From Fomes fomentarius (Eukaryota; Basidiomycota; Agaricomycetes; Polyporales; Polyporaceae), in contig JABYQN010000012.1 of the NCBI GenBank assembly GCA_022606135.1, forward strand, positions 744,001 through 808,000: a stretch of DNA of 64,000 nucleotides. Reading direction: 5' to 3'. Of this stretch, positions 1-7,920 are shown piece by piece. The notes beneath the pieces are model-generated. The model made no database searches, was not told the origin of the DNA, and was given only the letters and a program-made list of their open reading frames with translations. A program made the position numbers and the translations under genes. Position 1 is the stretch's first letter, and each line of letters opens with the position of its first letter.

Positions 1-420
1 ACTGAGCGCGGGGGTGGCTGACGGGGCACTGGCCGTGGTGGGCGTGCGCTGAGGCATCGCCTGGCATGGCATTAACCCCGTTTCTGGACAGGGATTCTGT
101 TCGCGAGGGGCGGGGAATTCCATATAGGCTCGTGCAATCTCTGGCCGATCTGCATCCGGTCGGGTCTGGGTGTCATATGGCCCTGCAATGCACTCGAAAT
201 ATGAAACTTGGCGACTGGAAACTTTGACTCTCTCTCTCCTGACTTACTTACATATACACTCCCGTGAGAGCGCGCGGGAAGCCATCACTCAACTGCTCTC
301 GGTAACTGCCCGTCTTCTAAAGCTTGCCTCCCTCCCCCGACGCCAATCTCCCGCTCCCCCTCTCCACGCTCCCCCACCGTGCCGTCCCACACCCACACTG
401 CCGTCACCTCGAACCCCGCG
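1..420. other. Upstream region of the G-alpha gene
   Basis: No coding exon or RNA gene is recognised here. The last 120 bases before the ATG at 421 are pyrimidine-rich, as is common in 5' leaders of highly expressed basidiomycete genes. Short open frames in this stretch have no family resemblance and look like chance. Confidence 0.4.
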
Positions 421-2659
421 ATGGGTGTCAAACGCTCCGTCGACGAGGACCCGCTCTCGCGCCTTCTCGCGCCCCCGCCAAACGAGACAGCCCAGGAGAG
501 GGAGATTCGCTTGCGGCTCGAGGCTGAGGCCCGCCTCACCAGCGACAGGATAGATGAGCAGCTCAAGGCGGAGCGCGCTGCACTCAAGAAGAGCAGGCCG
601 GTCAAGGTTCTTCTGCTTGGCCAGAGCGAAAGTGGTGCGTACACGCGTTGGCTCCAGGGTCGAATGTCAGTGTGACGCCTTGTCGTATCTCCAGGAAAGT
701 CGACGACGCTCAAAAGTGAGTCTTCGGTTTTTGTCACAGCACACTCGTCCTGCACTGTGATACTGCGTGCCTGTGGGTGTACGTGGGTGAGCGAGCCCTT
801 GGTCGCGTCCCGCTATACGGTCCTAGCGATAGAGGACGCCAGCGGCCCTGCTGACTCCGAGCGCCTCGCCATATGCACCCATTGCCCGCCCTACCCAACG
901 CCGCAGCACAGACAGTGCCTAGGCCAGGCGCATGCAGCCCCATCCACACCCTCCTTCGAGGCGCGTGCTGCCGTAAACCGCGATGGATGCGGCGGGTGCG
1001 CGGATATGGCAAGCAGCATTCCTAACCCCAGATCACGCATGAGCGGTTTGGCGCGCAATGCTTGATTCGAATTCCGCACAGCAAATGCACGTCACAGGGG
1101 CAGGACTAACGGAATTTCCATAGACTTCCAGCTCGCGTACTGTCAGGACCAGTGGGAGGCCGAACGCGCGTCGTGGTGCATGGTCATCCAGCTCAACCTC
1201 GTCCGCGGCATCAACACCATCCTCGACATCCTCTCGGAGGAGATGGTTGGCGTGCCTACCCCTCCCGCCGCGGACTCGGATGTGAGCGACGATGAGGAGG
1301 GACGGTTCTCGCCTGCTCCGGGCAACCCACACTTCTCGGGCAAGCACCGTCTGCTCAAGCTGCGTCTCGCTCCGCTACGAACTGTTCAGCGCGACCTCGA
1401 GGTGCGGATCGGCGTCCAGGCCGGCGCAGACTTCAATGACACCATGAGCTCACCCCCGGGCTCACCGGTGCTCGGCGGAGGCCAGCGGAAGCAAGAGTTC
1501 TTCGTCCGTTCTGCCACAAATTGGAAACACATCCGCAACGACAGCGAGGGCATGGGACGGAAATCGAAGGATGTGCAGACGCGCGAGACCGCGGACATCC
1601 TCGCTGGGTGCGCAGAGGACATGAAGGCGATCTGGGAGGACCCCGCGGTTCGCGACATGCTCCTTCGGAAGGGGATTCGCATGGAGGCGACGCCAGGATT
1701 GTCCGTCTGTCTTCGCTTACACCTCCCGTGAGATGTGCTGACGCGCTTGCAGCTTCTTGAACGATATCTACCGAATTGCCTCCCGGGACTACCAGCCTAG
1801 TGATGACGACGTCGTTCGGGCGCGATTACGGACGCTGGGCGTGCAAGAGTACAAGATCCGCTTTACTAAGGGTGAGCAGCGTGCATGCTCATCCCAACCC
1901 TCGCACTCGCTCACATTCATCTCTGTTAGGTCCTGCATCAGGTTCAGAATGGTGTATATACGACGTCGGCGGGTCTCGAACACAACGCATCGCGTGGTAT
2001 CCTTACTTTGACGATTGTGACGCCATCATCTTCCTTGCGCCGATTAGCTGTTTCGACGAGCGACTAGCGGAGGACCGACGCATCAACCGGCTGGAGGACA
2101 GCTATATGCTCTGGAAGGCGGTTGTGTCATCCAAGCTACTCGCGAAGACTTCGGTTGTGCTGTTCTTGAACAAGTGCGACCTGCTCGAGCAGAAACTCCT
2201 CAGCGGCGTCAAGGTCAGGGACTATGTCCATAGTTACGGAGACAGGTCGAACGACGTCGAGAATGCCACCAGATGTGCGTGCTGTTTCGCAGCATGTCGT
2301 CGATACGCTCCTTCGCTAATCTCGTGCTTCGTCACAGACTTTGCACAACACTTCCGGGACATCCTGAGAAAGCACTCGCCCGAACCAAGGCCGTTCCGGG
2401 TGCACATGACGTCGGTCGTGGTAAGTTCCAACAGCGTTCCTCGTGTGTGTTATCTCTCTCACGCCTGACACCTGCGTTCAGGATACCAAGGCAACAGCTG
2501 TGACGCTCTCAGTTGGTGAGTGTCTGTCACTTTTCTGTGCCTTTTCATTCGAAGCCGTTGTCGCCTGCGGCAATCGTTGACGGGGGTGTTTTTTCTTTTT
2601 CTATTATAGTTGAAGAAGGCATCCTTCGTGATCATCTACAGCGAGCCGACCTCCTTTGA
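421..2659 (+). CDS. Divergent G-protein alpha subunit (basidiomycete type), 480 aa
   Basis: Heterotrimeric G-protein alpha subunit, a GTP-binding switch that couples membrane receptors to effectors. Exons inferred: 421-634, 695-715, 1124-1700, 1753-1871, 1930-2274, 2338-2420, 2482-2515, 2610-2659; phases close exactly. The start gives MGVKRS, an N-myristoylation motif. The P-loop GQSESGKS is at residues 67-74, an arginine-finger R295 and Mg-binding T298 lie in switch I, DVGG at 322-325, and NKCD at 391-394. A serine-, proline- and glycine-rich insert of about 100 residues (roughly 105-205) sits in the helical domain. Two departures from canonical G-alpha are visible: the switch II glutamine after DVGG is Ser326, and the TCAT box is replaced by TSVV. 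The C-terminal helix ends ADLL with no pertussis-type Cys. A second possible last exon lies at 3288-3337. Family assignment is firm; coupling partners are unknown. Confidence 0.93.
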
Positions 2660-2999
2660 TTTGATTCACCCGGTCGTGCCCGTCTTTTGTTCTGTTTGAG
2701 CTGTAGGTTTCTGTGCTGTCTGCGTTCCCCATTCCCTTTGCTGCGCACGTAGTTCTCTCCTAAAGCATCGTTTAATTAGACGGCACTCTCCACCTTACTA
2801 GTGTGTACAGTAGCTCTACCTATGCCCCCCTCCCCCACGCCCACCCACTCATCTTGTCTCTGTATTGGGTATGCGTATGCTGCGCGTACAATCTTGTTGT
2901 ATGTAATACATAGTGACGACCATACTTATCTCGACCTACGCCTATCACCACTTTTGCCTTTACCGGCCCTTAGGCTAGCACGAACCCAAACGTTCTCCA

Positions 3000-3285
3000 T
3001 CATGCATCGCCCTCGTGATACCCGCTCGCGCTCTCCCTCTTCCCCCCCTTCCCTTCTGCTCTTCTATCCTACCCGCGCCCAATCTCCGGGTTCTTCTCGC
3101 TTTCGCACCCGCGCCTCCGCGCTTCCCGCTTCCGCTTTCCAATTCCGCGCCTTCGCCCCCCCCCCCTTCAGGGCTTCTTGTTGCCGTTTGCTCTCTGTTT
3201 CTGTTGTTGCGCTCGCACGGTTCCTCGTCGTTGACACGCTTGTTTTTCTCCCTCTCGCGCGCGCTCTCTCTCTCTTTTCCCATGC
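3000..3285 (+). repeat. Pyrimidine-rich low-complexity tract
   Basis: The + strand is mostly C and T here, with runs of CCTT, CTCT and TTCC, up to the acceptor of the alternative G-alpha exon. Long open frames on both strands through this tract are rich in R, S and P or in L, F and S and are composition artefacts. It could serve as an extended polypyrimidine tract, or as a 3' UTR or terminator region for the short transcript form. Confidence 0.6.
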
Positions 3286-3287
3286 AG

Positions 3288-3337
3288 TCCAGGAACACAT
3301 CTTCAAAAAGAACCTCTCCGACTCGGACCTGACGTAG
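3288..3337 (+). CDS. Alternative last exon of the G-alpha gene
   Basis: This 50-nt segment follows a long pyrimidine tract and a CATGCAG acceptor. Read in the phase left by the exon ending at 2515, it encodes 16 residues, VQEHIFKKNL followed by SDSDLT, then TAG. The regular last exon (2610-2659) is also 50 nt, in the same phase, and encodes VVEEGILRDHL then QRADLL. Both match the G-alpha C-terminal helix pattern (V, acidic, I, basic, NL, acidic, L). Splicing 2515 to 3288 would skip the first stop and use a 772-nt intron. The sequence match is direct; actual use as an alternative exon is inference. Confidence 0.7.
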
Positions 3338-5184
3338 GCCTGGGAGCCTTCTTCCGCCCGCCGGCCCGCCCGGCGAATCTGAAGAGCGATCGGGGCCCCC
3401 GGACGCGTGAGAGAGACAGTGGGGCGTGTCGTTGTTTTGCGGTGAGCTTCTCCCTTCTCCTTCCTCCTTCCTCCTTCCTCCTTGCCTTCTACTTCTACTT
3501 CTACTTCTTCTTCTTTTTCCCCTGTCCCTGCGCCTGCGCCTTCCTACTGCTTGCTTTTCTCCCACCCCCCGCGTCTCACTCACTCGATCGGGCGCCGGGT
3601 GCAGACGTGGTGACGTTTCGCGCTGCCGCGCGAGTCGTTTTCGTTTTTGGACCATGGTATCTTCCGTGTACCATGTCCCTCCCCCGGGCCCGGGGGAGCG
3701 CATCCTGCTCCCTCTCTCCTCTCTCCGGTCTGAGGCTTTGCCGTTCTGGCCTTTGGACATATGCATTGAGGATTGATCCATCAGTCCATTCATGCCGTGG
3801 TTTTTGCGCTCGGCCAGTCATGGTGCAATGGAAGTCGATGTGCTGATGTGCTTCCCCCCGTCCTCCGTCCTCTAGATTTTTTTTCTATCTCTATCTTGCG
3901 CCGGCCCCCACACAACTCGAAGCGCCGAATCGTGGATACGTATTTATCGGCTGCGTCGGACCTACTCCTTCTCCCGTCTCACACATCCCACATCCCGCAT
4001 CCCGCATCCCGCATCCTACATCTCCCTCTCCTCGGACATCGTTAAACGTCCGCCCACCGTACTGTCTCCCGCCGTCCTTATCGATCGTTCTCCCATGCAT
4101 TGCAATCTCGGTTTCTTGCTGCGCCTCCCAAGTGCCCCACCACCATTCATCCATCTATCTTGTGTCCCCGCCGAGGCGCCTGCCCCGTCTGCTCATCTAA
4201 CCTACATCCTCCTCAATCCTCCACCCTTCCCCGTCCTCCTCCATCCGCCTTGCCCATGCCCCATCTTGCCGCCATTGTGTCCCTCTGCCGACATTTTTCA
4301 GATGTCAATCGTTTCCTCGTCGCTTGTTGTATATCGTATTTGTATATCGGCGTTTCCCCCCCGCGCTTGGCCATGGTTTGCGTCAGCCTGAGTTTCGGAA
4401 GTCCCCCTAGCAGAGAGCTGGTCGCTCGTTGCTCGTGCCCGTCATACTATTTACATATGCATATATGAGCGGCAGACACCACTCGATGCCGAAGCTGCTC
4501 GTATGGTATGGTATGTACGTACGTACATAAAGTACATGGGTACATTTTATCAGTAGATAGGTCCTGTATACGGACCATTAGATCATGCCATGTTTCCGTT
4601 TTTCTTGTTATCAAAAAACTGGCGGTTGAACATAGCTAGCTTGAATATCACCAGGACTCAGACCGTTGTGTACGTGCATACTTGAAATTAATACCTTGTA
4701 TGATCCAGAGAACGCGAGGATCATGACGGTACCAATGGTACGCACGTTCAATTTCGCCCCGGCGTATAAACTGCGGTAGTCCGAATCTGCCAGTGATGCG
4801 GGCTATCTATCTACGTGCGTACTGTAGTACGAACATGCCCAATCGGCGCGAACCATCTAAGTGTGTAGAATCTACAACTTGAATATGTCTATGATGCTGC
4901 ATCGAAAAAATGTTCAGAGATGCGCTCATGCTATAGCTACGGCAGGGTCGTATAACGATACAGTGACAACCAGCATTCAGACATGTCATGATGCACGACA
5001 GTCCGTGATATCGATTCAGTAGCGAGATTGAGCGTGAACCTAACGATGCACTTACCGTCCAACATTACCATTATTCAGGCCGAGCGGGATCCACTGCCAG
5101 TGACCCTCCCTCTCCCTCCCCTTCAAAGCTTCACCCCTCCAAGATCCCGAGCTCAAACTCTCGCGGGCCGGGTCTTCCGACCGT
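3338..5184. other. Intergenic region with simple repeats
   Basis: No gene is recognised. The stretch holds a CT-rich block at 3440-3530 with TTCCTCC and CTTCTA repeats, a 7-mer tandem at 3984-4018, and a GTAC-rich patch near 4515-4535. It separates the convergent G-alpha (+) and MFS transporter (-) genes, so it should contain both 3' ends. Confidence 0.5.
3984..4018 (+). repeat. Heptanucleotide tandem repeat (CATCCCG)
   Basis: Five consecutive 7-base units: CATCCCA, three copies of CATCCCG, and CATCCTA. This is a minisatellite-like slippage repeat with no visible coding role. Confidence 0.85.
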
Positions 5185-7920
5185 TCAATACGCAGCGAAG
5201 AGCCTCGGCTCCCGCTTGAATCGTGCTGCAAAATGCACATGAGTAACTGGAGCCCGAGTGTATCCGAAAGTGCCACTGCCCCTGCCACTACCAGAACGTC
5301 ATGACACAGGAAATCCGTAAGGAGGTGCATGTGGACGTGGGGCATGGACGTATGCGGATAGATGGATAGATGGACTGTGGGGGGACGGCAGCTACTAAGG
5401 GAACGCACCGTACAGGAGGCAGAGCGCCCCGATGACTTGCACGGAGCCCGAGTAGGCGGCGACGACACGCCAGTTGTTGCCCGTCGCGCCCAGGATCGCG
5501 CCGCCGACCGGCGCGCCCGCGGCGTACCCTGTTAGTGTCACCATAACGTCAATTACTGATTACGATAATACGTAGAGAGCGCGCCGAGGAGAAGAAGAGG
5601 AAGAGGAACAAAGGGGGGTAAGGGAGGACTTGGGCGATCGAGGTTGATTGACAGGAGATGGGGAGACCAGGGAGAGACCGTGACGGACGGGTAAGGAAGG
5701 GTTAGGTGGGGGACGTACCTGGAGCGTTGAAGAGCAGGAGGAGGCCAGAAAGGCCCGCGATCCGGTCCGCGCCGTACACCTTTGCGACGACGGCGGAGAT
5801 GAGGGAGAGGAAGCAGCCGCAGAAGAAGCCGTACAAGACCGCAAACACCATCTGTGCCGCCCAAACCCGTCAGTCGCATTCGCAGCCATGATGTTTTGAA
5901 GGTGAGGCTCAAGAGTGGGGAAGAACTCAAACAGAGGAAGGGAGGTAAGGAACTCACAATCCCGGCGTAGGTAGAGACGAACGTCCAGACGAGCAGCTGC
6001 GTGAGGCCCGAGAGCGTGATCGCGAACCAGAGCGCGTTGACGGGCCCGACCCTGTCCGCCGCGAAGCCGACGAGGATGCGGCCCACCGCGGCGGAGATGT
6101 TGAGCACCGTCAGCGGGAGTGCCGAGAGCTACAGCGGAGGAGAGCGTGCGACGGGTTCAAGGGGATAGTGTGACGAGCCGGCATTTAGAGAGGTAGGCCG
6201 GTCGTTAGTGGTGGAGATTGGAGAGTTCAGGCTCTTGGATGCTCACCAATGCGCTCTGCCCCGGAGCCTTCTCGACCGTGAACGTAGGCAGGAGGAAGAC
6301 AGGCCCAAGGTAGCCACTGCAAACGAGAGTGTGAGAGTGTCAGTGTATCAGCAACAGCAGTAGATAACACGCTCAACGGACACCAACAGCGATCCGCACG
6401 ACCGTATACAAGAAATCCTCGCAAAATCAATTCACTCACAACACGGTGAAAAAGAAACAGCCGGCGAGACTCCAGAACACCGCGTCGCCGAAGAACGCGC
6501 GATCGTACCAGACGAGTGGCGGCCGCTTCGACTTCGGCGGGCGGCGTTCCTCGATCATACAGTACCCCGCGGCGAACGCGAGCGCATCAGCCGCAGCGAA
6601 GATGGCGAGAGATTTCCGGAGCCCGAGCGAGCTGAGGAGCAGCCGGTAGAGTGTCGAGCAGAGCGCGCCGCCTGGAGTCAGGGGGAAGGGGCGTTTAGTT
6701 TCGTGCGTGACACGTACAACAACAAGAAGGACAGCCTGACGGACCGATGGACGAGCCTGCGACGACGATGCCTACTGCGAGTGCGCGGTTGCGGAGGAAC
6801 CACTGACAGGGTAGTGCCACCTGGGTGCCCATATGCGGTTAGTGTGCATGCAAGTGTGAATGAGCGTGATGCTTAGTGTTGGATACGTGGTTGAATATAC
6901 GTACAATGAGTGGAAAGACGAGTGCGTCCGAGAGGCCCTGCATGACACCCTGTAAGATGGAAGCATGGGATGCTCAGCATCACTCAGAAATGGTAGCGTT
7001 TTCGACTCTACTGGGTCGATTGGCGGCAGGAGGGTGAACGCACCATCGTGAGGAAGAACTGCCAGATCTCGGTGCAGAACGCGGACGCGACCATGCTCGC
7101 GACCCACATGATCGCGCCTGCTGCAAGAAACGGCTGAGTACAAGAATAGAATGCGCATGCGGTAGCATATGAGGAGGTGAATATGTTATCGCCGTCTGCT
7201 GAGTCTGAGTTGCTCTCATATGGAAAGCGAGGTGCATGTATCGGCGCATACCTTGTATCCGCTACATGGTGTTCAGCACTTGTTGGATGATTGGATGATC
7301 GAGGATGGGATACGTACTATCGGTCAGCGAGCTTTCCTGCTACGATGCCTACTATTGTCATGATCTGTCACCACGCATCATGCGACAGATGGAGAGGAAA
7401 GCCAGGCAGAGATAGGTTGTATGGCATTTAGTGGGATGCCGATAGTATGGTGCTACAAAATGACGAGACTCACTAGACAGGACATGCTACCTAACGTAGT
7501 CAACACCGAATCTGGCGTCCCGGGGAACATATGGGACTTGAAGTATTCTTCTGTCACACCCCACACCTAAGCATACCTGGTGAGCGCCAACATGGATGAT
7601 GCGGGAAGTGCAGACAGAATGCGATGCGCACCAGACTATATGCGCAACAAATGACCTGTCAGCGCAGAAAAGTAGCGAAATACGGATAGTTGGACTGACC
7701 CCCATCCGACAGTGGCAGCGGAATACAGGAAACATCCTGACACGACGAGCCAGCCGCGGCCACCATCAGGAAAGGTGTGTTGGTGCGGTTCTTCGTCCTT
7801 CTCTTCACTGGGAGTGGGCTGAGGGGTATCTGAAGCTGTAGAGACCTCGACGACCACCTGTTCTTTGTCAGGCGTCTTCTCTTGGGTTGCCTCCCGACTC
7901 GGCGATATTGCTCGGCTCAT
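5185..7920 (-). CDS. MFS transporter, monocarboxylate-transporter-like, 450 aa
   Basis: Twelve-helix major facilitator of the fungal monocarboxylate (MCT/SLC16-like) type, probably at the plasma membrane; substrate unknown. The start at 7920 gives a charged cytosolic N-terminus of about 50 residues, then FPDGGRGWLVV opening helix 1, the family's entry motif. The loop 2-3 signature reads GKLADRYGYK, and later helices show GVMQGLSDALVFP and LNISAAVGRI. Thirteen exons by phase: 7920-7696, 7566-7474, 7364-7318, 7261-7252, 7133-7044, 6949-6905, 6820-6745, 6671-6440, 6316-6247, 6128-5958, 5851-5719, 5528-5409, 5225-5185. The last exon gives the family's usual ARFKREPRLFA tail. One exon is only 10 nt. 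The donor after exon 1 (GTCCAA) is weak, so that junction is the least sure. Confidence 0.9.

Follow-up and report, generated by a model that had tools for sequence, protein, structure and literature searches.

A G-alpha gene of Fomes fomentarius with two candidate last exons encoding the end of the alpha-5 helix

The window analysed here, a stretch of 64,000 nucleotides of Fomes fomentarius DNA, opens with a G-alpha gene whose last coding exon is present in two copies (A and B) that have diverged and would serve as alternative last exons. From sequence comparisons we conclude that A and B are in all likelihood alternative last exons of old origin that encode the end of the alpha-5 helix; the best reading is that of two interchangeable exons that would swap its receptor-facing end. 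Joining the donor at 2516 to A would remove an intron of 94 nt, the 3′ end then being formed within the 628 nt ahead of B, and joining it to B would skip A and remove an intron of 772 nt. The swap would concern only the last 15 residues, the outer end of alpha-5, which is the part entering the receptor, and one G-alpha body could answer two receptor sets via its two forms. We regard this explanation as a whole, a two-form G-alpha made by alternative last exons and serving two receptor sets, as probable. Both exons are presumably used in F. fomentarius, exon choice is probably tied to the choice of 3′ end, and the tail swap is predicted to change receptors. To reach B, the intron has to be 772 nt long and to pass over a coding exon, an arrangement that is unusual in mushrooms and counts against the explanation; the counter-evidence weakens the present use of B in F. 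fomentarius more than it weakens B as a genuine exon.

The gene and its two last exons

The G-alpha gene is complete and lies on the + strand, and its seven common exons span 421-2515 (Table 1). All six introns between them are of the GT..AG type and keep one frame, which yields a protein of 480 amino acids with either tail. The Pfam G-alpha family (PF00503, cut-off 48.8 bits) is matched with 299.5 bits when the protein ends in A and with 301.0 bits when it ends in B. The spliced protein contains GQSESGKST, DVGGS and NKCD, which we take to be the P-loop, DVGG and NKxD motifs of nucleotide binding; switch I is presumably held by exon 4, as judged by motif, and exon 3 probably encodes the helical domain, as judged by position. 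The best explanation is that the gene codes for a heterotrimeric G-protein alpha subunit from a subfamily found across mushroom-forming fungi. Intron 2, which lies inside the P-loop coding region, has a length of 408 nt versus 52-63 nt in the other five common introns.

Table 1. Features of the G-alpha gene in the window (position 1 is the first nucleotide of the window).
Feature	Position	Strand	Remarks
Exon 1	421..634	+	start codon and first part of P-loop (GQSESG)
Exon 2	695..715	+	KSTTLK, remainder of P-loop
Intron 2	716..1123	+	408 nt
Exon 3	1124..1700	+	
Exon 4	1753..1871	+	
Exon 5	1930..2274	+	DVGGS of switch II and NKCD
Exon 6	2338..2420	+	
Exon 7	2482..2515	+	DTKATAVTLSV plus G, start of alpha-5, in both forms
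Donor	2516..2521	+	GTGAGT, for both A and B
Candidate branch site with pyrimidine tract and acceptor of A	2574..2609	+	TCGTTGAC; putative role
Last exon A	2610..2659	+	VEEGILRDHLQRADLL, then TGA (2657-2659)
Candidate branch site with long pyrimidine tract and CATGCAG acceptor of B	3228..3287	+	TCGTTGAC again; putative role
Last exon B	3288..3337	+	VQEHIFKKNLSDSDLT, then TAG (3335-3337)

Both last exons are 50 nt long, are entered in one phase (the split codon is G|TT or G|TC, both Val) and end with an in-frame stop of their own. Two coding last exons of equal phase, each with its own stop, thus lie behind one donor, an arrangement like that of GNAO. The gene model agrees with the earlier note in the coordinates and letters of A, B and the donor as well as in equal length, phase and in-frame stops. 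The encoded tails have 6 of 16 residues in common. Retention of the intron at 2516 would allow translation for 13 residues past the neighbour of the shared GTT codon before a stop is reached inside the intron; a full alpha-5 therefore needs a spliced last exon.

The acceptors read ..CTATTATAG for A and ..CCCATGCAG for B. The long pyrimidine tract and CATGCAG acceptor described for B in the earlier note are borne out: 18 of the 20 nucleotides at -25 to -6 are pyrimidines, the highest value of the eight introns compared (A 16, the other six 8 to 15). Ahead of both acceptors we found a direct repeat, TCGTTGAC..TGTTTTT, starting at 2574 and 3228 (80% over 20 nt). A function as branch site is conceivable, and the repeat may go back to the duplication of the exon, although one such repeat may also be due to chance. 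Inverted repeats able to pair the two acceptors amount to three pairs, the best of 12 nt (2453-2464 with 3405-3416), and were judged not meaningful. A search against Rfam gave no match at gathering scores within 1-6000.

The codon make-up lends modest support to B as a coding sequence, with 16 codons to judge from. Third positions in B are G or C in 14 of 16 codons, in flanks of 55-58% GC (P of 0.007 to 0.012 for at least 14), and second positions have 19% GC; the common exons have 75% and 43%, respectively. Exon A, an undoubted exon, has G or C in only 6 of 16 third positions (38%), and third-position GC therefore separates real exons poorly.

Exon B in related fungi

The orthologue set comprised 121 models, namely the best 120 of 2036 protein matches (7999 best-sharing candidates were scored) and one found in a search with the B tail. 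According to tail scores 113 of the 121 end in A, one ends in B (P0015) and seven in neither; the latter (P0013, P0014, P0021, P0025, P0032, P0106 and P0113) are cut short or misannotated at the tail. None of the 121 models has both tails. Since the protein database holds one protein per 90% cluster and usually one model per gene, the scarcity of B (1 of 121) says little. The model from Ganoderma sinense (P0013) ends in VVDGGIFHYS, which is not an A-type tail; this ending may derive from exon B, or it may result from a bad gene model.

The B-type model comes from Lenzites betulinus and ends ..TLSA-VWDKIFAKNLKDADLA. Its tail is identical to VQEHIFKKNLSDSDLT of the window at 9 of 16 residues, with the same junction and the same length. 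The annotated tail of its close relative, the Trametes gibbosa protein P0012, is of the A type. Both proteins are 90% identical overall, with 435 of 475 aligned positions identical before the tail and 5 of 16 within it (hypergeometric P 1.6e-8). The abrupt change exactly at the junction is accounted for by alternative exons together with annotation of one model per gene. Because both tails are found in the window, and A- and B-type tails in the Trametes/Lenzites group, the common ancestor of the two lineages very likely had both, as far as the sequences can tell. The annotation of two close species with different tails suggests that one-model-per-gene annotation can hide such exons. Lack of any conserved sequence for B was named by the earlier note as grounds for giving up its proposal; the Lenzites tail speaks against such a lack, albeit in one relative.

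Using the B tail of the window as query gave 19 matches, with P0015 as the sole B-type, and the Lenzites tail gave 10 matches, with no B-type beyond P0015. Comparison of viral and prokaryote contigs with an alignment of 43 orthologue rows yielded pattern matches (48 and 39, respectively), of which none was confirmed.

B changes faster than A, as seen in the 9 of 16 residues that it shares between the window and Lenzites. This bears on the alternative that survives best, which we nevertheless consider unlikely: B might be a relic of an ancient duplication of the last exon, once used and still used in Lenzites, that is now silent or nearly silent in F. fomentarius, where A does the work. A near-constant A in the closest models (15 or 16 of 16 tail residues identical in P0001-P0012, P0016, P0017 and P0020), next to a B that differs at 7 of 16 residues between F. 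fomentarius and Lenzites, would fit such a loss, as would the A tail of the representative model of each of the two nearest relatives listed, Lentinus tigrinus and Polyporus arcularius. However, frame, length, stop, acceptor and pyrimidine tract of B are all intact, and this would be unlikely for a dead stretch of 50 nt over a genus-level split.

The receptor-facing tail and its possible use

The last residues of G-alpha are a main determinant of receptor choice. Compared with the tail of human Gi1 (its end taken to be KNNLKDCGL), B is identical at 7 of 16 residues, the B tail of Lenzites at 8 and A at 4. With KKNLSDSDL beside KNNLKDCGL, B looks nearer to a typical G-alpha tail than A does. 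AlphaFold models were made for P0015 (B type) and P0012 (A type) from 43 sequences each and reached mean pLDDT values of 72.7 and 74.0. Both end in a single unbroken helix (466-490), with confidence dropping towards the tip of alpha-5 (mean pLDDT for residues 481-490 is 54 in P0015 and 59 in P0012). In the PDB, the P0015 model matches G-alpha subunits best, and many of these are parts of receptor complexes or heterotrimers; the query TM-scores reach only 0.37 to 0.45 among the best 50 matches, owing to large low-confidence parts of the model. The modelled B tail is compatible with a normal alpha-5, and receptor preference is not readable from the model.

The catalytic Gln of switch II (DVGGQ) is absent from the protein, which has DVGGS. 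The motif was located in all but two of the 121 orthologue models, and in none of these 119 is it DVGGQ: DVGGTR occurs in 69, DVGGSR in 38, DVGGAR in 10, and DVGGHR and DVGGIR in one each. Two paralogues of F. fomentarius (L037 and L044) retain DVGGQ. Judged by these alignments the missing Gln is a trait of the subfamily that leaves Pfam membership unaffected. GTP hydrolysis or the response to RGS proteins may be unusual in the subfamily, and normal hydrolysis is not assured.

A more specific form of the preferred explanation is that a G-alpha lacking the catalytic Gln kept a second, more typical-tailed last exon, whose regulated choice would switch receptor sets, and that this exon has been kept since before the lineage of the window (closest to Lentinus and Polyporus among the relatives listed) parted from the Trametes/Lenzites group. 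Taken jointly, these statements seem to us possible but a little short of probable.

To our knowledge, the pairing of receptors with G-alpha subunits in mushroom fungi is largely open. A constant body with a changing receptor-facing tail is a natural swap experiment. The two forms of GNAO couple to different receptors. In PMC5896119, alpha-5 is named as a determinant of receptor choice, and GNAO is described as having mutually exclusive exons 7-8, which are alternative C-terminal coding exons. Like GNAO, the gene in the window would be a single G-alpha gene with alternative C-terminal coding exons; GNAO has duplicated a pair of exons, whereas in the window it is one last exon of 50 nt. The GNAO event is dated to vertebrates there (PMC5896119), and its origin would thus be separate from that of the fungal case. 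The same text reports that preGNAS of amphioxus (Cephalochordata) has alternative final two exons encoding alpha-5, and it is proposed that these may alter the receptor range (PMC5896119). The gene in the window would share this choice of C-terminal exons encoding alpha-5. The animal gene alternates two exons with copies described as 80-81% alike, in contrast to one exon and 6 of 16 common residues in the fungal gene.

In the mushroom fungus Schizophyllum commune, exon skipping makes up 1% of the coding-region events in transcripts, though a junction count puts such events in coding regions at 1,527, and mutually exclusive exons occur in 171 genes, mostly in UTRs, according to PMC5034255. Such exon choices are thus made by a mushroom fungus, with the difference that the mutually exclusive exons reported there are mainly untranslated, whereas A and B are coding. 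The main text of PMC5034255 uses neither the term G protein nor G-protein, and a search of PMC10532568 for G-protein and exon-skipping terms gave no hit. No fungal G-alpha with alternative last exons was found among the literature matches listed, most subscription journals lying outside their scope. To that extent the earlier note's statement that no fungal example is known holds; the principle itself is not new, the closest cases known being GNAO and preGNAS of animals. If the explanation is true, a fungus has reached independently the trick of animal GNAO and amphioxus preGNAS, and the result would be a splicing-made receptor-switching device that is new for fungi as far as the literature was searched.

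Splicing to B might also be a regulatory choice: a B form with poor coupling or none would dampen signalling and would not serve a second receptor set. We regard this as quite improbable. The final residue of B is Thr (Ala in Lenzites), that of most A-type models Leu, Met or Ile; this difference would suit such a role, and opposing roles are reported for the mouse splice forms G-alpha-o1 and o2 of one G-alpha in PMC11808459. In B, however, both leucines of the Gi1 tail and its K/N/D pattern are kept, features for which a decoy that does not couple would have no use.

Exon B and other G-alpha sequences in the window and the genome

The two strands of the window contain 8352 AG dinucleotides, of which 5137 are followed by 16 open residues in the phase of exon B. 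Scored against the Lenzites P0015 tail, B is the best of these 5137 (BLOSUM62 score 44); A scores 20 and the best place outside both exons 16. Against a panel of G-alpha tails, which includes A and B themselves, A scores 75 and B 77, and the best candidate in the remainder of the window (2 x 58 kb) 23. That 3288-3337 is an intergenic stretch resembling a G-alpha tail by chance is hardly credible and was rejected on these scans: it does sit in pyrimidine-rich DNA, but it tops all open 16-mers against an independent tail.

Two further origins of B were rejected. It could be a piece of a second, degraded G-alpha gene; in 2660-5400, B alone was matched by the two proteins of the window at better than E 0.4 (1.3e-6). 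The 12 best matches of orthologue proteins in this region had E-values of 0.002 to 0.055; one (P0015) is exon B, and the other 11 are 22-35% identical, some of them crossing stops, and were taken as noise. B could also be a dispersed repeat or a copied paralogue tail; the 156-nt stretch containing B and the degenerate pattern IF-x-KNL-x-D each occur once in the 40.9-Mb assembly. The paralogue tails nearest to B are those of L032 and L035 (8 of 16); since the B tail of Lenzites agrees with them at only 5 of 16 residues, we claim no origin of B from these loci.

A search for G-alpha genes in the F. fomentarius assembly (40.9 Mb, 24 contigs) gave 44 matches, which were grouped by eye into 16 loci (L031-L046) beyond the gene in the window, located on contigs C1, C2, C4, C5, C9, C10 and C17. 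A tail is readable in 12 of the 16, and in 10 of these 12 it lies directly behind an AG in the phase of exons A and B. With the gene in the window included, a tail can be read at no fewer than 13 G-alpha loci of the genome. The 2.8 to 3.2 kb downstream of each of the 12 paralogue tails were scanned for a second tail (an AG acceptor, the phase of the split codon and a stop 15-19 residues on), and no convincing one was found there; the extra candidates behind L042 and L035 scored 15 and 14, both less than the background maximum of 23. Since neither the L037 nor the L042 tail lies behind an AG in this phase, the scan did not recover these two. L040, L041, L043 and L046, which have no clear tail by eye, were left out; two tail candidates at L041, both with a score of 27, were judged unconvincing. 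L032 and L035 are located approximately 28 kb apart on C9 and have identical tails, VQEMIIMSNLEGLGLTE.
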